In this document: piece after piece, positions 529 to 11,066 of the stretch | Position numbering within the stretch: position 1 is the first letter of the stretch | Layout: every line of letters starts with the position of its first letter | Origin: an archaeon | Lineage (GTDB): Archaea; Asgardarchaeota; Hermodarchaeia; Hermodarchaeales; Hermodarchaeaceae | Length of the DNA stretch: 11,869 nt | Reading direction: 5' to 3' | Assembly (NCBI GenBank): GCA_016550415.1 | Contig: JABXGU010000767.1 | Span: forward strand, 1 to 11,869 | The notes under the pieces: generated by a model | Told to the model about the DNA's origin: nothing | Databases searched by the model: none | Seen by the model: the letters and a program-made list of their open reading frames with translations, nothing else | Position numbers and translations under genes: made by a program

Positions 529-807
529 TCATATCCCTTTACGAGCTAGCACAGCTACTGAGCCACGACGACCACAAATCTCGCATGAGGTTCGAGTAGC
601 CAACTCAGCGATAAGAACATCCATAGCGCCAGCAGATAATGCAGATGGCAAAACACGAACCTTAACAATTCGCTTCTGCTTCAACAAACGCTTCATCTCA
701 GCAACTAACCCATCATCAATACCGCCCTTACCAATCCGGATACTAGCCTTTTCCTCAGCCCAAACACGAGCCAATTCCCGCTTATCTTTCACCATCATCC
801 CATCCAT
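529..807 (-). CDS. YhbY/CRM-domain RNA-binding protein
   Basis: About 92 residues, the usual size of a stand-alone archaeal YhbY (CRS1/YhbY, CRM) protein. The single domain fills the protein: KRELARVWAEE helix, the GxxG-type RNA-binding loop seen as RIGKGG near residue 25, a second helix (VAEMKRLLKQKR) and the strand IVKVRVLPSA. The C-terminal CEICGRRGSVAVLARKG is the family's ending, with two Cys two residues apart. Family members bind structured RNA and associate with ribosome precursors. The stop of rnp4 lies 7 bases upstream, so the two genes are co-transcribed, a recurrent archaeal pairing. Start is uncertain: ATG codons at 807, 798 and 795 are all in frame and the domain needs only the last of them. 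Ends with TGA. Confidence 0.88.
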   Translation of the reverse strand: MDGMMVKDKRELARVWAEEKASIRIGKGGIDDGLVAEMKRLLKQKRIVKVRVLPSALSAGAMDVLIAELATRTSCEICGRRGSVAVLARKGI

Positions 808-814
808 CCGACAT

Positions 815-1165
815 TCATTGTTCCAATAATTGTTGCACCCGTTGCCTATCCCGTCGCCACATAATTTTCCGCTGAAAACCACACACCAAACACGTAACAA
901 CCAGTGAACTCGCCCGACCCCTACGACGAAGCCGCACACGAGAATTCACACCAGGCCTAAAAAAGACTCCACAACGATGACAACAACGAAACCGAAGCTC
1001 GCGAGGCAGCCGCACACGAGCTCGCATCACAATCCGACGAGCCATCAACACGTACCGACGCGACAGTTCCTCATCATCCCTAGCAACCTCCTCCGCCAAC
1101 CTAAACAGGTTCCGAATCTGATTAATTACAAAACCCCGCCATTTTCGGCCACCATTAAAACGCAC
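815..1165 (-). CDS. rnp4: Ribonuclease P protein component 4 (Rpp21/Rnp4)
   Basis: Zinc-ribbon subunit of archaeal RNase P, which removes 5' leaders from pre-tRNA; homologue of eukaryotic Rpp21/Rpr2. The N-terminal helices include RNLFRLAEEVARDDEELSRRY and LMARRIVMRARVRLPREL. The zinc ribbon follows, with a Cys pair in CCHRCG, the family signature RPGVNSRVRLR, and a second pair in TCLVCGFQRK. The longest reading would begin inside the tRNA-Gly gene, so I place the start at GTG 1165, giving 116 residues, the family's size; GGTGGTG lies 5 bases before it. The gene sits 32 bases after the encoded CCA of tRNA-Gly(GCC), on the same strand, with no separate TATA box evident, so tRNA, rnp4 and yhbY probably share a transcript. 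The tRNA is itself an RNase P substrate, so processing would release the mRNA. Confidence 0.9.
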   Translation of the reverse strand: MRFNGGRKWRGFVINQIRNLFRLAEEVARDDEELSRRYVLMARRIVMRARVRLPRELRFRCCHRCGVFFRPGVNSRVRLRRRGRASSLVVTCLVCGFQRKIMWRRDRQRVQQLLEQ

Positions 1166-1196: not shown

Positions 1197-1300
1197 TGGT
1201 GCGCCGTCCGGGATTCGAACCCGGGCTCCCAGCGTGGCATTCTAGCGCGGCGCAGCTAGCGACCAGCGTGGCTAGGGTCCTACCACTAGACAAACGGCGC
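1197..1300 (-). tRNA. tRNA-Gly(GCC) with a 30-nt intron at 32/33
   Basis: Acceptor GCGCCGT pairs with ACGGCGC; discriminator A at 1200 and CCA encoded at 1199-1197. The D arm is GTCT-AGTGGTA-GGAC; the T arm is CCGGG-TTCGAAT-CCCGG. The anticodon stem is CTAGC (1275-1271) with GCTGG. The loop is completed only after removing 1269-1240, leaving CTGCCAC with anticodon GCC at 1238-1236. Bulge-helix-bulge evidence: exon CTAG pairs with intron CTAG, the 3-nt bulges are CCA and AAT, and cutting after the second base of each gives C32 joined to T33. A CGC/GCG helix continues inside the intron. A 10-nt direct repeat (1229-1238 and 1263-1272) spans the two junction regions. The gene leads the rnp4-yhbY transcript. 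Confidence 0.9.
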
Positions 1301-1326
1301 ATTGTTTCAGTAGAGTTTGGTAACCC

Positions 1327-1340
1327 CTTAAATTACTTTC
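1327..1340 (-). promoter_or_regulatory. TATA-like promoter for tRNA-Gly(GCC)/rnp4
   Basis: On the minus strand GAAAGTAATTTAAG is an A/T-rich TATA-like element with a purine-rich 5' flank. Its centre is about 32 bases before the tRNA 5' end, the same offset seen at tRNA-Gly(TCC) and tRNA-Phe. With the usual 26-bp spacing, transcription would start a few bases before the tRNA. Confidence 0.5.
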
Positions 1341-1399
1341 TGCCTTGTTGCTATGTTGCTTGATTGTTTTTTGAGGGGGTGGTTGGTTATTAGGGGTAT

Positions 1400-1717
1400 C
1401 TAATCCCTTTCTCTTCTTTGTCGGCTTCTTGCATCTCTTTCTGCTAGGGGTCCAAAGATTTCTTTGCTTGCATCTTTCCATGCTTTATTTCGGCGGTATG
1501 CTTCTTGCCATGTTACCATTCCGTCCCAAAGGGCATCTGCAACGATTTGCCATTCTCTTTCGACGGGATTTCGAGGATTGCGAAGTTTTCTGGTTTCAAT
1601 ATTTTTCTCTCTATGGACTCTCCATTTCTCATTATCGGGTCTAACGTTTCTATGAATCCACGCTATTTCTTCTGGAGTATACCATTGGACCGGTAGTTCC
1701 TTCTTTGCTGCCATCAT
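1400..1717 (-). CDS. Hypothetical soluble protein, about 105 residues
   Basis: I do not recognise a family. The protein is highly charged and unusually rich in tryptophan for its size (VQWYTPEEIAWIHRN, NEKWRVHREKN, EREWQIVADALWDGM, TWQEAYRRNKAWKD) and ends in an Arg-rich tail. No membrane segment, signal peptide or Cys/His metal site is visible. The regular helix-like pattern and a good ribosome binding site argue that it is real: GGAGGG at 1727-1732 lies 9 bases before ATG 1717. A second ATG follows directly, and an upstream in-frame ATG at 1792 lacks such a site. It ends with TAG about 100 bases before tRNA-Gly(GCC), same strand. Confidence 0.6.
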   Translation of the reverse strand: MMAAKKELPVQWYTPEEIAWIHRNVRPDNEKWRVHREKNIETRKLRNPRNPVEREWQIVADALWDGMVTWQEAYRRNKAWKDASKEIFGPLAERDARSRQRRERD

Positions 1718-1726
1718 GCATCCGTA

Positions 1727-1732
1727 CCCTCC
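1727..1732 (-). promoter_or_regulatory. Shine-Dalgarno site deciding a start
   Basis: GGAGGG on the minus strand, 9 bases before ATG 1717, selects that start over the in-frame ATG at 1792 for the hypothetical gene downstream. Confidence 0.6.
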
Positions 1733-1870
1733 ATTATTCTGGTTTTTGTCTTCCAATGCTCCTTTGCCAGAGATGCTGTCGCAACAAGGCATTGACCATT
1801 TCGCTCTATCCTATATCTGAAAAACAGGCTCTTCAATTTTTTCAGAAGATTCGGTTCTTGTGATCTTTAA

Positions 1871-2167
1871 CTATTTACTTCCTTGTTGCTCTAGCTTTTT
1901 GATTCGCTGTTCCAGTGTCCTCATCCTTGCTTCTTGACTGCCTAGTTCCTCAAATAGAATACCATCGTACAATTTCCACGCTACAATACCAAGTGCAATA
2001 GCTACAAAAATTCCCCAACCACTAATAAACCATTCAACCAAGACGTACATGGAAAGTTCAGGAAGAAGTTGAACAAGCAACATCCCATTCCATAATGTTG
2101 CTACTAATCCAGTTAGGGAAAAAATTACATTCAATCCAAGAATCATTTTGACAAACACCTCTTTCAT
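1871..2167 (-). CDS. Small membrane protein, two helices plus coiled-coil tail
   Basis: 98 residues, no recognised family. Two hydrophobic segments are clear: about residues 8-34 (MILGLNVIFSLTG..ATLWNGMLLVQLL) and about 43-68 (VLVEWFISGWGIFVAIALGIVAW). A charged C-terminal tail (about 72-97) follows, with the heptad-like run RMRTLEQRIKKLEQQ, suggesting a short coiled coil on the cytoplasmic side. The start is ATG 2167, preceded at 6 bases by GGGGGAT. A 16-bp palindrome lies 32-47 bases before the start and a TATA-like ATTAAACTAG just beyond it, so the gene appears to have its own, possibly repressible, promoter. It precedes the tryptophan-rich hypothetical gene on the same strand with a 150-base gap. 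Confidence 0.65.
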   Translation of the reverse strand: MKEVFVKMILGLNVIFSLTGLVATLWNGMLLVQLLPELSMYVLVEWFISGWGIFVAIALGIVAWKLYDGILFEELGSQEARMRTLEQRIKKLEQQGSK

Positions 2168-2198
2168 AGTTAATCCCCCATGTATGATTTTTCATTCT

Positions 2199-2214
2199 TA
2201 AGTTGCTCAACTTA
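2199..2214. promoter_or_regulatory. 16-bp palindrome, candidate operator
   Basis: TAAGTTGCTCAACTTA is a perfect inverted repeat with 7-bp arms and a 2-base centre. On the minus strand it lies just downstream of a TATA-like ATTAAACTAG (2215-2224) and upstream of the start at 2167, so it would cover the predicted transcription start. That placement is typical of archaeal repressor operators. The regulator is unknown. Confidence 0.4.
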
Positions 2215-2373
2215 CTAGTTTAATCTTCTGTAATTTGTTCACCATTTAGTAGTAGGTTGGCTAGTGCGATATTGTCTGTAATATTTGGGCGATTTGTTCT
2301 TAGAAAATCCTGTTATCCCTATTGTATGATTTGCGCTGTTGTTAAATCTGAAGCGGGGGATGAGTGTAAAGGA

Positions 2374-2383
2374 AAAATTTAAG
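2374..2383 (+). promoter_or_regulatory. TATA-like box for tRNA-Gly(TCC)
   Basis: AAAATTTAAG after GG-rich purines, centred about 33 bases before the tRNA 5' end at 2412. No coding signal is visible in the 160 bases upstream apart from an 11-codon ATG reading after GGGGG at 2355-2359, which I do not count as a gene. Confidence 0.45.
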
Positions 2384-2411
2384 CGATGTGATTAGCTCCT
2401 CTGTCTTTTGT

Positions 2412-2518
2412 GCGGTCGTAGTCTAGTGGCTATGATATTGGCCTTCCACGCCAATTGCCCGGGTTCGAATGCATGGTATGGGTTTCATGCTTTGCTGAAA
2501 GTCCCGGCGACCGCACCA
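2412..2518 (+). tRNA. tRNA-Gly(TCC) with a 32-nt T-loop intron at 59/60
   Basis: Acceptor GCGGTCG (2412-2418) pairs with CGACCGC (2508-2514); A73 is followed by encoded CCA (2516-2518). The anticodon stem-loop is intact: TTGGC-CTTCCAC-GCCAA, anticodon TCC at 2445-2447. The T stem CCGGG/CCCGG is closed only after removing 2470-2501. The splice motif is well formed: exon TTCG (54-57) pairs with intron TGAA, the 3-nt bulges are AAT and AGT, and cutting after the second base of each gives A59 joined to T60, restoring TTCGAAT. The T stem is the outer helix, and GCA/TGC begins the intron helix. Splicing is needed to form the T arm. Confidence 0.92.
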
Positions 2519-2599
2519 TTTCCATTATCTGTGTGATAGTTGAAAATAATTATAAGGTGTGGATTGAGACAAAGTTTGCCTGTGATGGCTTCCTTTGAT

Positions 2600-2708
2600 G
2601 GGCCGGTTGTCTAGTTGGTTATGATGCCGCCCTGACTGAATCTGTTCTGTTTGGACGGATTTTGGGATACGGCGGAGGTCGCGTGTTCGAATCACGCCCG
2701 GCCCACCA
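2600..2708 (+). tRNA. tRNA-Val(GAC) with a 32-nt anticodon-loop intron
   Basis: Acceptor GGGCCGG pairs with CCGGCCC (2698-2704); A73 at 2705 and CCA at 2706-2708 are encoded. The anticodon stem is CCGCC (2627-2631) with GGCGG (2671-2675), anticodon GAC at 2634-2636; the T arm is GCGTG-TTCGAAT-CACGC. The intron is either 2637-2668 (36/37) or 2638-2669 (37/38). I prefer 36/37: it leaves the expected purine A37 in loop CTGACAC, exon CCTG can pair with intron TGGG, bulges ACT and ATA fall correctly, and a 9-pair helix (GAATCTGTT with GACGGATTT, including wobbles) closes the intron. The 37/38 option would leave T37. A TATA-like AATTATAAGG sits at 2548-2557, farther upstream than at the neighbouring tRNAs. 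Confidence 0.9.
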
Positions 2709-2763
2709 CCATATATTTACTGTTTATCAAGTCTCTTGTAATGGCTCTTGTCGGGGTAACGGA

Positions 2764-2777
2764 AAACGCTTAAATGG
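2764..2777 (+). promoter_or_regulatory. BRE/TATA-like promoter for tRNA-Phe
   Basis: AAACGCTTAAATGG is centred about 30 bases before the tRNA 5' end at 2803, with a purine-rich stretch in the BRE position. This suggests that each tRNA in the cluster has its own promoter. Confidence 0.5.
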
Positions 2778-2802
2778 AGTTGTATCCTTCTGTCGTTTTG
2801 TA

Positions 2803-2914
2803 GCCGACGTAGCTTAGCTCGGGAGTATCTTGGTATATTGTTTGTTACCGGGTTCCTGAAAGCGCGGGACTGAAGATCCCGTTGTCGCCGGTTCAAATCC
2901 GGCCGTCGGCACCA
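2803..2914 (+). tRNA. tRNA-Phe(GAA) with a 35-nt D-arm intron at 22/23
   Basis: Acceptor GCCGACG pairs with CGTCGGC (2904-2910); A73 is followed by encoded CCA (2912-2914). The anticodon arm CGGGA-CTGAAGA-TCCCG is uninterrupted, anticodon GAA at 2872-2874, with G37, the substrate base of Trm5. The T arm is GCCGG-TTCAAAT-CCGGC. The D arm is split: removing 2826-2860 gives GCTT-AGCTCGGGA-GAGC, the usual archaeal tRNA-Phe D arm. The splice motif: exon CGGG pairs with intron CCTG, bulges AGT and AAA, cut after the second base of each, with an inner helix ATCTTGGTA/TACCGGGTT (one mismatch). A simpler reading that leaves AAGC in the D stem moves the boundary by one base and breaks this motif. Confidence 0.92.
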
Positions 2915-2990
2915 TCTCTTCTTATCATCTAATCTATGATTGCCTAGGTTGTCTTAGAAATGAAATAATTTGCTTTAATGTGAATGTCTG

Positions 2991-3449
2991 TTATCGTTTG
3001 AACAAATAGCCTACGAGTTCGGCGAAAATTAGGGAGATAATTGCACCAGCTGTGTTTCCGACTATGTATTTGACTAGGCTTACTTGTACAAAGGGAGTTA
3101 TCATGGTGATGGCAAAGACTGCTCCCCATATGACAAGGACAAAACCTGCTGCTAAAAGAATAATGGCAAAGCGTAGAAGATATTGGCGTACCGGCTTTGA
3201 AGGTGTTGCGTGAGGATGGCGACGTTGGGATATGAGTATTGAGTGGAGAGTATTTGCCAGGAGGGCGGATCCAGTTGCTTGTACTAGTACAACGCCGAGG
3301 GGTACAAAGGCGAGTATGAGAGGAGATACAATGTAGAGAGTGTATGCTGCCGAATAAGAGAGGAAGATTTGGATGACTCCTAAGAATCCTATTAGCAGCA
3401 CTAGAAGGGCAGCATCATCAGATGTTCTCCAATAATAGGCAACCGACAT
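2991..3449 (-). CDS. Hypothetical membrane protein, four predicted helices
   Basis: 152 residues, no recognised family. Hydrophobic segments lie at about residues 12-34 (DAALLVLLIGFLGVIQIF), 36-66 (TLYIVSPLILAFVPLGVVLVQA), 90-115 (LLRFAIILLAAGFVLVIWGAVF) and 127-148 (YIVGNTAGAIISLIFAELVGYLF). A polar, basic loop (about 72-88, SQRRHPHATPSKPVRQ) splits them into two hairpins, and the protein ends in KR. No catalytic motif is visible, so a transporter accessory or small integral protein are only guesses. The start is ATG 3449 with a weak AGGGAT 6 bases upstream. It stands alone, converging on the tRNA cluster and 88 bases after the tRNA-Ala 3' end on the same strand. Confidence 0.7.
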   Translation of the reverse strand: MSVAYYWRTSDDAALLVLLIGFLGVIQIFLSYSAAYTLYIVSPLILAFVPLGVVLVQATGSALLANTLHSILISQRRHPHATPSKPVRQYLLRFAIILLAAGFVLVIWGAVFAITMITPFVQVSLVKYIVGNTAGAIISLIFAELVGYLFKR

Positions 3450-3536
3450 AAGTGATCCCTATTGCATATCGATAGCAATCTCGCAAGGGCTAAGTCGTAA
3501 TAAATGTATTGTTGTGATGCAGCAAAAAATGATTGA

Positions 3537-3648
3537 TGGTGGACTGGCCGGGATTTGAACCCGGGACCTCCGCCAGTTTGGAATGTTCACCCTTCTGTTG
3601 ACAGGTGATGTTTGCCAAGACGGCGATCTACCGCTGATCTACCAGCCC
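3537..3648 (-). tRNA. tRNA-Ala(GGC) with a 37-nt canonical intron at 37/38
   Basis: Acceptor GGGCTGG pairs with CCAGTCC (one G-U pair); A73 at 3540 and CCA at 3539-3537 are encoded. The D arm is GATC-AGCGGTA-GATC, the anticodon stem CCGTC/GGCGG, the T arm CCGGG-TTCAAAT-CCCGG. The anticodon is GGC at 3616-3614. The intron is 3612-3576. The splice motif is textbook: exon TTGG (32-35) pairs with intron CCAA, bulges CAA and ACT, and cutting after the second base of each gives A37 joined to T38. TCACC/GGTGA forms the intron hairpin. The gene starts 20 bases after the L37e stop on the same strand, so it is probably the last gene of the LSm-L37e transcript. Confidence 0.93.
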
Positions 3649-3668: not shown

Positions 3669-3854
3669 TTAGATGAGACGTGTTCGTGTGACGTCTTTAT
3701 TTTGCCAGCTGTATTTTCGTATTTTACTTGTCCGTCCGAAACCACAGGCGGCACAACGCTTTTTATTAACATGGTATGAGTGGCGTCCACAGCGACGGCA
3801 GCGGATGTGCGTTTTTAGATTGTGTTTGCCAAAGGAGGGTGTTCCTTTAGTCAT
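3669..3854 (-). CDS. rpl37e: 50S ribosomal protein L37e (eL37)
   Basis: 61 residues, the family's normal length. It begins [12 protein letters not shown], the invariant L37e N-terminus. A four-cysteine zinc site follows, CRRCG at residues 19-22 and CAACG at 34-37, enclosing [10 protein letters not shown]. The basic tail ([15 protein letters not shown]) is also typical. It is a zinc-binding protein of the large subunit that contacts 23S rRNA and occurs only in archaea and eukaryotes. ATG 3854 lies 6 bases after the LSm stop. The LSm-L37e pair is a conserved archaeal operon. Confidence 0.97.
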
Positions 3855-5196: not shown

Positions 5197-6279
5197 ATGA
5201 GAAAGGTTTGTATTCGAGTCAAGCGGCGTTTTGGGGAAGAATTAAGAAGACTATTGATAGAAATTGGATTTCTAGACTCGGAATTCCCCATTACCCAAGA
5301 AGATGAGCATCTTTTATTTCCATTGCGCAGGAAAATTGGCAAGACACAAATCGCTGAACTTGAGCAGAAGATTACTCAATTAACTCTAGTTGAAAGGGAT
5401 TTGAATCCAGTTGAACAGAAAATAAAGGACCTAACAACTGCGCTAAAAGACCATATTCCTTCCCGGTATCTAGAGTTGTTACCCCATTCCCTCGACATTA
5501 TTGGGAATATTGCTATTATCGAATTATCCGATGAACTTCAACCCTACTCACAAAAGCTTGGTGAAGCAATCATGATTGTTAATCACCATATCACAACGGT
5601 TTATGCCAAGGCAGGTAGTGTTGCTGGAGAATATCGCCTTCGCCCATTGAGTCTCATTGCTGGTGAACCAAGTACTAAAACATTACATACTGAATATGGA
5701 ATCAGAATTGCCATAGATGTTGCCAAGACCTATTTTAGCCCACGTCTTAGTACAGAACACAATCGGGTAGCCAACCTTGTCCAATCAGGAGAAGTAATAC
5801 TGGACATGTTCACTGGTGTGGGACCCTTTGCATTATTGGCTGCGAAGCACCGCAAAGTCTCAGTCTATGCAATTGACATCAATCCACATGCAATAAGATG
5901 CTTAAAGAGGAGTATGAAAATCAACCAATTGAAAGGAAAAATCATACCAATTATCGGTGATTGCCGCAAAGTTATCCAAGACCAGCTACATCAACGCGTG
6001 GATCGAATTATCATGAATCTTCCACATGAGGCTTTGACATACCTTGATGTCGCCGCAGCCTCCATTAAGCCAGAAGGAGGAATGATTCATTTCTACAGTA
6101 TTGTATCAAAGAGGAACCCATTAGACGATATCTGCAAACGTGTTGTGACTGAACTTGCCCAAAATGGACGACCTGCAAGCATTATACAGCATCGTTATGT
6201 TCGTCCTTCAGCTCCTCACGAATTTCAGGTAGTTCTAGACCTAAGAATTGCAGGTGCTGAGACTTCGATGACCACCTGA
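5197..6279 (+). CDS. trm5: tRNA (guanine-37-N1)-methyltransferase Trm5
   Basis: 360 residues. Trm5 uses SAM to methylate N1 of G37 next to the anticodon, preventing +1 frameshifting; in archaea m1G37 of tRNA-Phe also begins wyosine synthesis. After an N-terminal region (about 1-90), the core starts at HIPSRYLELLPHSLDIIGNIAII and continues through AGEYRLRPLSLIAGE and TEYGIRIAIDVAKTYFSPRLSTEHNRV (about 165-191), the Trm5 signature whose Glu (near 187) is the probable catalytic base. SAM motif I is LDMFTGVGPFALLAA (202-216), motif II AIDINPHA, and the NLP motif is NLPHEA (274-279). tRNA-Phe in this window has G37. The 3' end overlaps the DUF371 gene by 55 bases tail to tail. Start ATG 5197; no clear ribosome site. 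Confidence 0.95.
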   Translation: MRKVCIRVKRRFGEELRRLLIEIGFLDSEFPITQEDEHLLFPLRRKIGKTQIAELEQKITQLTLVERDLNPVEQKIKDLTTALKDHIPSRYLELLPHSLDIIGNIAIIELSDELQPYSQKLGEAIMIVNHHITTVYAKAGSVAGEYRLRPLSLIAGEPSTKTLHTEYGIRIAIDVAKTYFSPRLSTEHNRVANLVQSGEVILDMFTGVGPFALLAAKHRKVSVYAIDINPHAIRCLKRSMKINQLKGKIIPIIGDCRKVIQDQLHQRVDRIIMNLPHEALTYLDVAAASIKPEGGMIHFYSIVSKRNPLDDICKRVVTELAQNGRPASIIQHRYVRPSAPHEFQVVLDLRIAGAETSMTT

Positions 6280-7472: not shown

Positions 7473-8663
7473 CTCAGGGGGCTTGCGTAGTTTGGCTATG
7501 AAGTAGCCGGGCAAATTGTGGCGGTCAGGATAGAAGCGTTGCACCCCTTGCATTATTGGTAAGACACCGCCAATTCCACCATCGCCAAGGTACGGAGTTT
7601 GAGGTTCAAGTTTGAAGTCCTTAGAATCAATGAGATACTGAATATTATGCTCATTTTCCTCAACGGTTAGCGTGCATGTGGAGTAAACAAGAATGCCTCC
7701 GGGTCGTAATGTCTCGATTGCTGAATCAAGTATCATTCTCTGGTAGGAAGCAGTGCTACGTATTCTAGAAAATGTTGTCAAATCAAAGAGCTTGGGACGG
7801 ACCCCCAAAGCTGTGCAAGGAGGGTCCACAATGATACGGTCAGCACTAATATCAGGATATTTTGCACAGAACTCATTTGCCCTTCCTGTAAAAGTTTCCA
7901 CACCGGTTACACCCAGCTGCTTTGCCTCTGCCTCCAACCTTGATAAACGACCTTGAGATCGATCAACGGCAAAAATCCTACATTGATTTTTTGTCAACTG
8001 CGCAACGTGTGTGGTTTTCCCACCAGGAGCAGCGCAGAAGTCAATAATCGTTTCACCAGGTTTAGGACCGAGAATGGGTGCTACTAACATTGCAGGTAAT
8101 GATTGTGAGTAGAAAAGACCTGCTTTGCTTGCGGCAAGATTGGCAAGGCTAGGTAGTGCATAGAAGGGGTGTGTCACTCTCACGAATATGCCTGTTTTCT
8201 GTGCCTGTAATTCTGCACTGTTCCCTGCTCCAATACCACTACCCACAATGTGACCACAGGGATTCACAATGGTAACTGGGTCACCTTCATTGAAATTAAC
8301 TGAGCGAACAACTCCAGGGCGATAGAGATGGCTACCAAGTAATACATTCTCGCTACTAGGCTTATCTGCTACAACGATTTTGTTGTGATGGGGTACAGGC
8401 GGACCTTGTTTTATGGGGATGGCAATAGCACCAAGGGTGGGTTCATAGATGTGAGCTTGCACTCCATCTTCTGCAAGCATTGTAATGAGTTCCTCGTTCG
8501 TAGTGCGGAGCGTGTTAGTTCGAAGGTAGAAATATGGTCCTGGCTGACGAAGTGCTGATAATAGAGATACGGTTCTTTTCTTGCCGAATAGAGTAACTAA
8601 GTATTCCTGTAACTCAGCACAAACCCTAGCCGAATCAGGTGGATAAGTGATTGAATCTAGCAC
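7461..8663 (-). CDS. NSUN6-like RNA m5C methyltransferase with PUA domain
   Basis: 400 residues. RsmB/NSUN superfamily with an inserted PUA domain (about 93-168: NKIVVADKP...GSHLYRPGVVR...GDPVTIVNPCGHIVGSGIGAGNS), the architecture of human NSUN6 and its archaeal orthologue, which methylate C72 of tRNA acceptor stems. All five tRNAs in this window have C72. The N-terminal part has the family's FYLRTNTLRTT strand. Catalytic motifs are intact: SAM motif I IIDFCAAPGGKTTH (206-219), motif IV DPPCTALG with Cys283, motif VI YSTCTLTVEENE with nucleophile Cys330, and the ending QRFYPDRH..GYFIAKL. GTG 8663 is the start, with no strong ribosome site. Exact tRNA specificity is inferred. Converges on pcm with a 12-base overlap. 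Confidence 0.92.
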   Translation of the reverse strand: MLDSITYPPDSARVCAELQEYLVTLFGKKRTVSLLSALRQPGPYFYLRTNTLRTTNEELITMLAEDGVQAHIYEPTLGAIAIPIKQGPPVPHHNKIVVADKPSSENVLLGSHLYRPGVVRSVNFNEGDPVTIVNPCGHIVGSGIGAGNSAELQAQKTGIFVRVTHPFYALPSLANLAASKAGLFYSQSLPAMLVAPILGPKPGETIIDFCAAPGGKTTHVAQLTKNQCRIFAVDRSQGRLSRLEAEAKQLGVTGVETFTGRANEFCAKYPDISADRIIVDPPCTALGVRPKLFDLTTFSRIRSTASYQRMILDSAIETLRPGGILVYSTCTLTVEENEHNIQYLIDSKDFKLEPQTPYLGDGGIGGVLPIMQGVQRFYPDRHNLPGYFIAKLRKPPESGS

Positions 8664-9677: not shown

Positions 9678-11066
9678 TTAATGAGAAATATTCAACCACT
9701 TGATTCCCGCTTTTTTAGCCGCGTAGCCCACTTCTCTTAGCCAGTCACCATAAACTATCAACCAGTGAAAACCCTTCATTTCCTGTAAAAGTCTCTCCCA
9801 GTCACCTTCAATCGAAATGTCTACTTGTGAGCGACAGATTTGGAGTCTTGGATTACCAAGGACTCTTCCTCTGAATCCTATCCATTCCTTCCCACTAAAA
9901 GCAGGATCAATTACAGTGACTGCTTGACCCTTCTGCATCTGAACTTGAGGGGCAGCACCATAATCAGATTCATAGTGGGTTGTAATTTCTGTAGGTTCAG
10001 CATCAAAACCATTCATTCGTCGAGGTGCAGTACAGTGAGCAACTGTGACCTCACCCTTGTGAGGAAAAGTGGGGTCAGCCAAGAAAACTGGCTTTCCTGA
10101 AATATGGCGTAGAAGGATTCCAGCAGGTATCGCTACGAAATCTGACTCACAAAAAGCAATGTATCCGGAATCATTGAAGACACTTAGGGGTAGACATGCG
10201 GTTGTTTCAGATATTGGTATGATCGTGGACATACATTCGCCAATTGTTAGGATCTTGGCGTCAAATTCTTGCAGATACTCGTTTAGAACGCCCTTAAGTA
10301 GAAACGAATTAACCACAAAGTCCTTTTTTGTTGTGAGCTTGACTTTGACATCTTTAAGATATTTATCCGCCTCGTTCCTAGCTTTTTGCAAAGCAGTTTC
10401 ATTAGCCCTTACCTCTTTGATTCGCTTCTCCAAACTTCGATAAGTAACAACTTCCACTTTTAGGTTCCAGATGTCTGCTGCCCTCTGCACAGCTTTATTC
10501 CCGATGCCCCAGCCTCCTGGGGCGCCTATCGAAACAACCTTTGAACCCTTCGTTGACTTAATCGCAGATAGGGATCTTAATCGCCAAAGGAGCTCATCGT
10601 AATCGTCTATAACTACATCTTCAACGTCGACAGGTTGGACGATTTCATCATAAGTGTTTTTTCGCAAGAATCTGGGATGCAGTATTTCATACCAAAGATA
10701 GACTGGACCAGAGTTCTTCCTTAAAAAGAACAAGATGGGTTTTCCATGGGATAGTATTGCTTCTAGTGGTTCCTTCGTAGCTGGTTCTTGTGCACCTGCC
10801 GCAAAAGCTAGAATTGCATCTGCATCAACCTTGAGATTGCGAATTTCTTCAGCAGAACTTGTTTTGTATACTGATTGAAATGCAAGAGAGAAGTCAGCTC
10901 TTTTCTTTAACTTTTCAAGTTCCACTTCAATGGTTTTGGCTTCTCTATCGGCATCAGCTGCAGATTGGATTCCGCCCCAGGGTCTCCAGCTTATCTTTTC
11001 CTTTCGCTCATATTCTCCGTAAACAAGAACGGGCTTAACTTCAAAGGCAGCCAATCTCTTCACCAT
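9678..11066 (-). CDS. L-fucose/L-arabinose isomerase-like protein
   Basis: 462 residues. The layout resembles the sugar-isomerase (FucI/AraA) superfamily: an N-terminal Rossmann-like part with DADAILAFAAGA and GKPILFFLRKNSG (about 81-120), a middle domain opening with VVSIGAPGGWGIGNKAVQRAADIW (177-200), and a C-terminal domain with FCESDFVAIPAGILLRHISGKPVFLADPTF and VTVAHCTAPRRM. Glu307, Asp331 and His344 could form the metal site, by position only; GFHWLIVYGD near the end fits the family's terminal His segment. Many archaeal members are unassigned and no fucose or arabinose pathway genes are nearby, so the substrate is unknown. ATG 11066 has GGAG 4 bases upstream and a TATA box 26-31 bases upstream. 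Confidence 0.75.
   Translation of the reverse strand: MVKRLAAFEVKPVLVYGEYERKEKISWRPWGGIQSAADADREAKTIEVELEKLKKRADFSLAFQSVYKTSSAEEIRNLKVDADAILAFAAGAQEPATKEPLEAILSHGKPILFFLRKNSGPVYLWYEILHPRFLRKNTYDEIVQPVDVEDVVIDDYDELLWRLRSLSAIKSTKGSKVVSIGAPGGWGIGNKAVQRAADIWNLKVEVVTYRSLEKRIKEVRANETALQKARNEADKYLKDVKVKLTTKKDFVVNSFLLKGVLNEYLQEFDAKILTIGECMSTIIPISETTACLPLSVFNDSGYIAFCESDFVAIPAGILLRHISGKPVFLADPTFPHKGEVTVAHCTAPRRMNGFDAEPTEITTHYESDYGAAPQVQMQKGQAVTVIDPAFSGKEWIGFRGRVLGNPRLQICRSQVDISIEGDWERLLQEMKGFHWLIVYGDWLREVGYAAKKAGIKWLNISH

Follow-up and report, generated by a model that had tools for sequence, protein, structure and literature searches.

Probable bulge-helix-bulge introns in all five tRNA genes of a conserved Hermodarchaeal cluster

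Introduction

What are the short inserts that interrupt every tRNA gene on a contig of an Asgard archaeon, and by which machinery would they be removed? The contig in question is JABXGU010000767.1 (assembly GCA_016550415.1), assigned to the Hermodarchaeales, and its 11,869 nucleotides, hereafter the window, harbor genes for tRNA-Gly(GCC), tRNA-Gly(TCC), tRNA-Val(GAC), tRNA-Phe(GAA) and tRNA-Ala(GGC). Taken as a whole, the five inserts are very probably archaeal bulge-helix-bulge (BHB) tRNA introns of a Hermodarchaeal archaeon, removed by a splicing endonuclease (EndA) of the type that carries a Crenarchaea loop. In the precursor, the 5' exon and the intron would pair at their ends to yield a helix of 4 bp with a 3-nt bulge on either side. 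Both bulges would then be cut by a two-subunit EndA with the Crenarchaea-type loop, before RtcB joins the exons. As the loop-type enzyme accepts motifs away from position 37/38, the tRNA could subsequently gain and lose introns, and these could shift from one part of its body to another.

Structure and detection of the five tRNA genes

The tRNA-Gly(GCC) gene (window positions 1197-1300, minus strand; exons 1300-1270 and 1239-1197) is interrupted at site 32/33 by an intron of 30 nt (1240-1269, minus strand) and folds into a cloverleaf upon its removal; the BHB core reads CTAG/CTAG and is accompanied by a 3-bp inner helix. Three genes on the plus strand follow. In tRNA-Gly(TCC) (2412-2518; exons 2412-2469 and 2502-2518), a 32-nt intron lies in the T-loop at 59/60 (2470-2501; BHB core flanked by an inner helix of 3 bp and an outer one of 5 bp), for which a shift by one base yields an identical mature tRNA. 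The tRNA-Val(GAC) gene (2600-2708; exons 2600-2636 and 2669-2708) contains a 32-nt intron at 36/37 (2637-2668) within a relaxed BHB motif (core pairs CG, CG, UG and GU, 10-bp inner helix, no outer helix), and tRNA-Phe(GAA) (2803-2914; exons 2803-2825 and 2861-2914) a 35-nt intron in the D-stem at 22/23 (2826-2860), with the core CGGG/CCTG and weak flanking helices. Finally, tRNA-Ala(GGC) (3537-3648, minus strand; exons 3648-3613 and 3575-3537) is split at 37/38 by 37 nt (3576-3612, minus strand) that form a BHB core with a 5-bp outer helix. CCA is encoded in all five genes. An earlier note, made from the letters of this DNA alone, had claimed introns in five of five tRNA genes, and its anticodons, positions and intron lengths are all confirmed.

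Removal of the inserts leaves a complete and correctly numbered tRNA in each of the five cases. The only imperfections are one unpaired D-stem position each in Gly-TCC and Val (three of four pairs), whose intron-free orthologues likewise score one mismatch; every other stem is complete. No sixth tRNA was recognized in the window, where the remaining GGTTCRA-like stretches, inspected by eye, are without a T-stem.

Standard tools mostly fail on these genes. ARAGORN reported a single gene, a truncated Phe, and the Rfam tRNA model matched Ala, Gly-GCC and a truncated Gly-TCC at or above its cut-off and Phe below it; Val was matched by the Rfam tmRNA model alone, below the cut-off of the latter. 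A purpose-built intron-tolerant finder recovers four of the five, the fifth with its T-loop intron being invisible because the finder requires an intact T-arm. The finder is not blind with respect to the window, since its threshold was lowered after a stricter first run had given none of the five genes. False matches were absent from 237,380 shuffled bases at the final settings and from 936,140 with a looser version.

A 4-bp core between 3-nt bulges, formed by pairing of the four exon bases that precede the 5' bulge with the four intron bases that precede the 3' bulge, is found in strict or relaxed form at all five inserts. When the introns are shuffled by mononucleotide and the exons left unchanged, the probability of a full core amounts to 0.023 for Gly-GCC, 0.061 for Gly-TCC, 0.032 for Val, 0.076 for Phe and 0.080 for Ala (product 2.7e-7), and the cores are beyond chance. 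The best motifs are those of Gly-TCC, Ala and Gly-GCC. Val, with two G-U core pairs and no outer helix, is relaxed as the earlier note implied, but Phe, with one inner and one outer pair, is weak as well. From structure alone, some placements are ambiguous, above all that of Phe, whose 22/23 position is omitted from a strict BHB listing because of its short flanking helices; this placement was settled by comparison with relatives together with the BHB core.

Intron sites across the conserved cluster

The cluster of Gly-GCC, Gly-TCC, Val, Phe and Ala recurs in the same order and orientation at seven Hermodarchaeal loci (L001, L002, L003, L004, L006, L025 and L031); two more (L005 and L018) reach Ala alone and were counted for this gene only. 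The mature window tRNAs are 85-97% identical to these orthologues, and introns occupy 23 of the 37 orthologous slots. With the window included, the five genes display 11 intron sites. Gly-GCC is interrupted in three of seven relatives, always by 22 nt at 37/38 (L004, L006 and L025), and intron-free in L001, L002, L003 and L031. Gly-TCC shares the 59/60 site of the window in four of seven (L003, L004, L006 and L025; intron-free in L001, L002 and L031), and Val carries an intron in one of seven, at 17/18 (L006; intron-free in L001-L004, L025 and L031). The Phe 22/23 intron is present in all seven loci, three of which (L001, L031 and L025) have a second intron in the same gene; its site in L001 and L031 is ambiguous between 36/37 and 37/38, with 3 and 2 of 4 core pairs at best. 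Ala is interrupted in eight of nine relatives, at 37/38 as in the window in four (L001, L003, L006 and L018), at 33/34 in three (L002, L005 and L031) and at 20/21 in one (L025), and is intron-free in L004. Among the compared loci, the Gly-GCC 32/33 and Val 36/37 introns were seen in the window only.

The precise absence of introns from some orthologues fixes the mature sequence of the window genes, in Hermodarchaeota for both Gly, Val and Ala, and for Phe in Thorarchaeota, whose tRNA-Phe is intron-free in L215 and L218. Hence, the junctions are supported independently of the motifs. Because the Phe 22/23 intron occurs in all seven cluster loci and, as judged by eye, in genome G001, it is probably ancestral to the clade. 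The Gly-TCC 59/60 intron, which occurs on either side of the deepest divergence, is perhaps ancestral too, its history being explained equally well by one gain and two losses or by three gains. In a Thorarchaeal locus (L220) and in one labelled Lokiarchaeota (L221), tRNA-Phe seems by eye to carry a T-loop intron; the gene for the tRNA methyltransferase Trm5 from the genome of the latter (L024) groups with Thorarchaeota, so that the Lokiarchaeota label may be wrong.

Intron turnover

The Ala gene exemplifies how such sites may change. The 33/34 intron of L031 (gene at 8359-8462) is identical to those of L002 (8365-8468) and L005 (323-426) in 30-31 of 32 nt, and in both pairs an identity of 98% extends over the entire Ala gene; the Trm5 proteins of L002 and L005 share only 63-67% identity with that of L031. 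L001 lies close to L031, at 92% and 89% identity in the flanks and 87% amino acid identity in Trm5, and the Ala gene of L001 (2372-2476) contains a 37/38 intron unrelated to the 33/34 intron of L031. This pattern could possibly stem from tRNA-gene conversion or transfer, from a mobile intron, or from an intron sequence under strong constraint. A tentative proposal, which we regard as rather doubtful, holds that orthologous tRNA genes of Hermodarchaeota swap their introns as discrete units. If true, discrete exchange in combination with the loop-bearing EndA of every sampled Asgard genome would provide a system to watch intron replacement, which might proceed by tRNA-gene conversion or transfer.

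Transposition between different tRNAs was considered as well and is not supported: among 65 Hermodarchaeal introns, the best cross-tRNA score was 20 compared to a shuffled maximum of 23, in a test with little power for introns so short and on a non-random set, one entry of which consists of two merged L025 Phe introns and from which some two-intron genes are absent. A search of eight genomes for copies of the Ala 33/34 intron, with up to 3 mismatches allowed, gave three matches, all at the Ala site and none in another tRNA.

A strongly conserved core was observed in the Hermodarchaeal tRNA-Tyr 37/38 introns of about 55 nt (L135:473-601, L137:190-318, L138:2661-2789 and L139:481-610). Here, CYGA stands opposite AATGA across a short hairpin in a slightly kink-turn-like arrangement, and the introns possibly represent a built-in guide RNA. 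Rfam returned tRNA plus weak sub-cut-off matches only for these introns.

Splicing machinery of the relatives

A plausible candidate for the removal of the introns is an EndA encoded in the Hermodarchaeal genomes. EndA was sought by means of PF01974 in 18 Asgard genomes, including all eight examined from the Hermodarchaeal class. Genes for both EndA and RtcB were found in eight of eight Hermodarchaeal relatives, the genomes in which the host machinery was examined, with RtcB in two pieces in G001. Two EndA matches above the cut-off are present in 15 of the 18 genomes and in seven of the eight Hermodarchaeal ones; the exception, with a single match, is G007, the smallest assembly. The alpha subunits, one per genome, keep Tyr, His and Lys in 18 of 18 cases at what we take to be the catalytic motif positions. 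The His, at which 3p1z and 3ajv differ, is kept in none of the 11 second subunits that were aligned from the 15 found (L130 was left out of the EndA alignment). In addition, the alpha subunit has an additional loop (GIRKPK type), in which all 18 sequences retain the loop lysine, two of them being Heimdall-labelled and reading GERKI.

The closest solved structure is that of Aeropyrum pernix EndA (3p1z_B, 158 bits), with which the loop of the catalytic paralogue aligns ungapped. The Hermodarchaeal loop has lysines at the positions of A. pernix K44, an equivalence counted by hand, and of the basic residue 46, both reported as important in the accessible text on the A. pernix loop (PMC12397907). 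Hence, the Hermodarchaeal enzyme resembles that of A. pernix (3p1z; PMC12397907, PMC6379350) in two subunits, the ungapped loop and both basic positions, while differing in its Asgard sequence, which was read from genomes of relatives, and it would likewise cut relaxed motifs. The relatives' EndA is therefore predicted to belong to the (alpha-beta)2 type linked to broad specificity, with a Crenarchaea-specific loop, and would assemble as a tetramer; the organism of the window presumably encodes the same enzyme. This is in line with the view of the earlier note that non-canonical introns call for a broad-specificity EndA, as seven of eight relatives have two paralogues.

According to the accessible part of PMC4033280, the loop was already reported outside Crenarchaeota, in Korarchaeota; the word Asgard occurs neither in PMC6379350 nor in PMC12397907. 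As PMC12918454 classed the EndA forms of its archaeal genomes in a supplement, the typing of EndA is not claimed as new. At five of six Hermodarchaeal loci (L135, L137, L138, L139 and L140), the gene for the non-catalytic subunit adjoins tRNA-Tyr; the sixth locus (L133) contains other tRNA genes, no farther than about 1 kb away.

Intron load in a relative

Five of five interrupted genes may seem exceptional, and the tRNA genes of a relative (G005) offer a measure. About 45 tRNA genes are expected in such a genome. An incomplete census, which covers 73 of 88 B-box pattern matches in hand-picked regions with 15 left out, recognized introns in 17 of 29 genes; the finder, with its requirement for an intact T-arm, contributed 28 genes, 16 of them intron-bearing with 19 introns, a Phe gene with two introns was added by hand, and some two-intron solutions are not secure. 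Because about 60% of the G005 genes are interrupted, five of five in the window is not surprising, the chance being about 0.07-0.09 if genes are independent. No intron fraction was drawn from Rfam lengths for the complete Thorarchaeal and Heimdall chromosomes, since the model misses non-canonical introns. The tRNAs of the non-Hermodarchaeal loci L007-L080 were likewise left out of the comparison.

Alternative explanations

Could the five genes instead be decaying tRNA pseudogenes or assembly artefacts, with working copies elsewhere? Second copies might exist in the window's own genome, yet the stems are complete apart from a single missing D-stem pair each in Gly-TCC and Val, the mature sequences agree with orthologues in the same order to the extent given above, all five inserts have matching BHB cores, and G005 shows one gene each for GAC, GCC, TCC and GGC within its incomplete census. 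This makes decay or misassembly highly improbable. Alternatively, some inserts, namely Phe 22/23 or Val 36/37 as those with the weakest motifs, might be retained as expansions of the D-arm or the anticodon loop. The Phe core is flanked by one inner and one outer pair only, and that of Val includes two G-U pairs and lacks an outer helix. However, the Phe site is common to the seven cluster relatives, in which diverged introns still pair with the exon in four of four positions, and the insert-free Val orthologues have an identical anticodon loop (CUGACAC), next to which a retained insert of 32 nt should block decoding. Retention is thus scarcely to be expected for either insert. Self-splicing introns of group I or II were rejected, as the inserts comprise 30-37 nt only and Rfam gives no match of this kind for the window up to an E-value of 1.

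The inserts are thus well supported as BHB introns, and their splicing would follow the route outlined above. Several points weigh against this reading nonetheless. The shuffle test takes the intron placements as given, and the motifs of Val and Phe are weak or relaxed. Close orthologues back four placements, whereas that of Phe rests on the more distant Thorarchaeal sequences. Moreover, G007, G012 and G018 gave a single PF01974 match each; G012 and G018 are apparently single chromosomes, so that a two-subunit EndA is not shown everywhere. In the latter two genomes, the one EndA-family match at E up to 0.1 is an alpha subunit with loop, and a diverged second subunit may be missed.

A further idea concerns the retention of the introns and not their identity. 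By spoiling tRNA genes as targets of integrating elements, introns could serve as an integration guard, as cited in the accessible part of PMC3293823, and Asgard elements that integrate at tRNA genes are described in that of PMC8813620. Yet a scan of 15 distinct proteins of the window revealed no integrase (no search for attachment sites was made), and we consider such a guard function rather unlikely.

Relation to known systems

For two other Asgard classes, Atabeyarchaeia and Freyarchaeia, the accessible part of a 2024 report states that 92-95% of tRNA genes are interrupted, often non-canonically (PMC11291895). The window matches them as Asgard DNA in which most tRNA genes are interrupted, often at non-canonical positions; the term splicing endonuclease does not occur in the main text of that report. 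No tRNA-intron report for Hermodarchaeota was found in the literature searched, most candidate papers being judged without their text. Hence, the suggestion of the earlier note that the lineage is poorly documented applies to Hermodarchaeota, but not to Asgard archaea in general. The phenomenon is known and the lineage new: a heavy load of non-canonical tRNA introns is hereby extended to another Asgard lineage. The most useful part is the conserved five-gene cluster, in which gain, loss and replacement or site change of introns become readable against intron-free orthologues.

In Thermoproteales, dense non-canonical BHB introns coincide with an (alpha-beta)2 EndA and rapid intron gain (Sugahara 2008 and Fujishima 2010, as quoted in the accessible parts of PMC4033280 and PMC11291895), a combination that Hermodarchaeota would share if their EndA assembles as predicted. 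Similar introns in diverse tRNA species point to transposition in Thermoproteales (PMC4033280, in part), whereas introns of different Hermodarchaeal tRNAs were no more similar to one another than the shuffled maximum in the low-power test described above. The tRNA-Thr(GGU) of Caldiarchaeum (PMC3293823, in part) resembles the Hermodarchaeal cluster in that close relatives differ in the intron state of a single locus; the Caldiarchaeum case involves a putative mobile element, whereas no search for element remains was made at the switched Hermodarchaeal gene.

Since the auxiliary loop of the eukaryotic TSEN enzyme has been likened to archaeal loops, according to the accessible part of PMC12397907, the loop-bearing EndA of the 18 sampled Asgard genomes bears on whether TSEN inherited a broad-specificity enzyme.

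Lineage and gene neighborhood

The lineage of the window was placed from one gene, which encodes a Trm5b-like tRNA (guanine-37) methyltransferase (5197-6279, plus strand; Pfam match above the cut-off; among NCBIfam models, Trm5b fits best but stays under its curated cut-off). In the Trm5 tree, the window falls into a 30-row set with support of 98/98 that contains all Hermodarchaeal loci, two proteins of which are labelled otherwise at source (P0041 Hodarchaeota, P0047 Thorarchaeota). Its Trm5 forms a clade with four metagenome proteins of 71-90% identity. This clade appears nested within the Hermodarchaeal set at a weaker fork (84/89) and may instead be the sister group of the others. Bin H02S_Hermod_124 contains two different Trm5 genes (L005 and L006), which suggests that this assembly is a mix of two Hermodarchaeota.

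The gene for SepF that adjoins the tRNA cluster, on which the earlier note had remarked, is real, but nothing ties it to the introns, and no functional link was found. At 9678-11066 (minus strand), a 462-residue protein is encoded beside a PhzF-family isomerase; it has no NCBIfam match, a Pfam scan not having been made. A further neighbor of the cluster encodes ribosomal protein L37e (3669-3854, minus strand; PF01907), and a CRM (CRS1/YhbY) RNA-binding domain protein (529-939, minus strand) is located on the side of tRNA-Gly(GCC) that faces away from the rest of the cluster.

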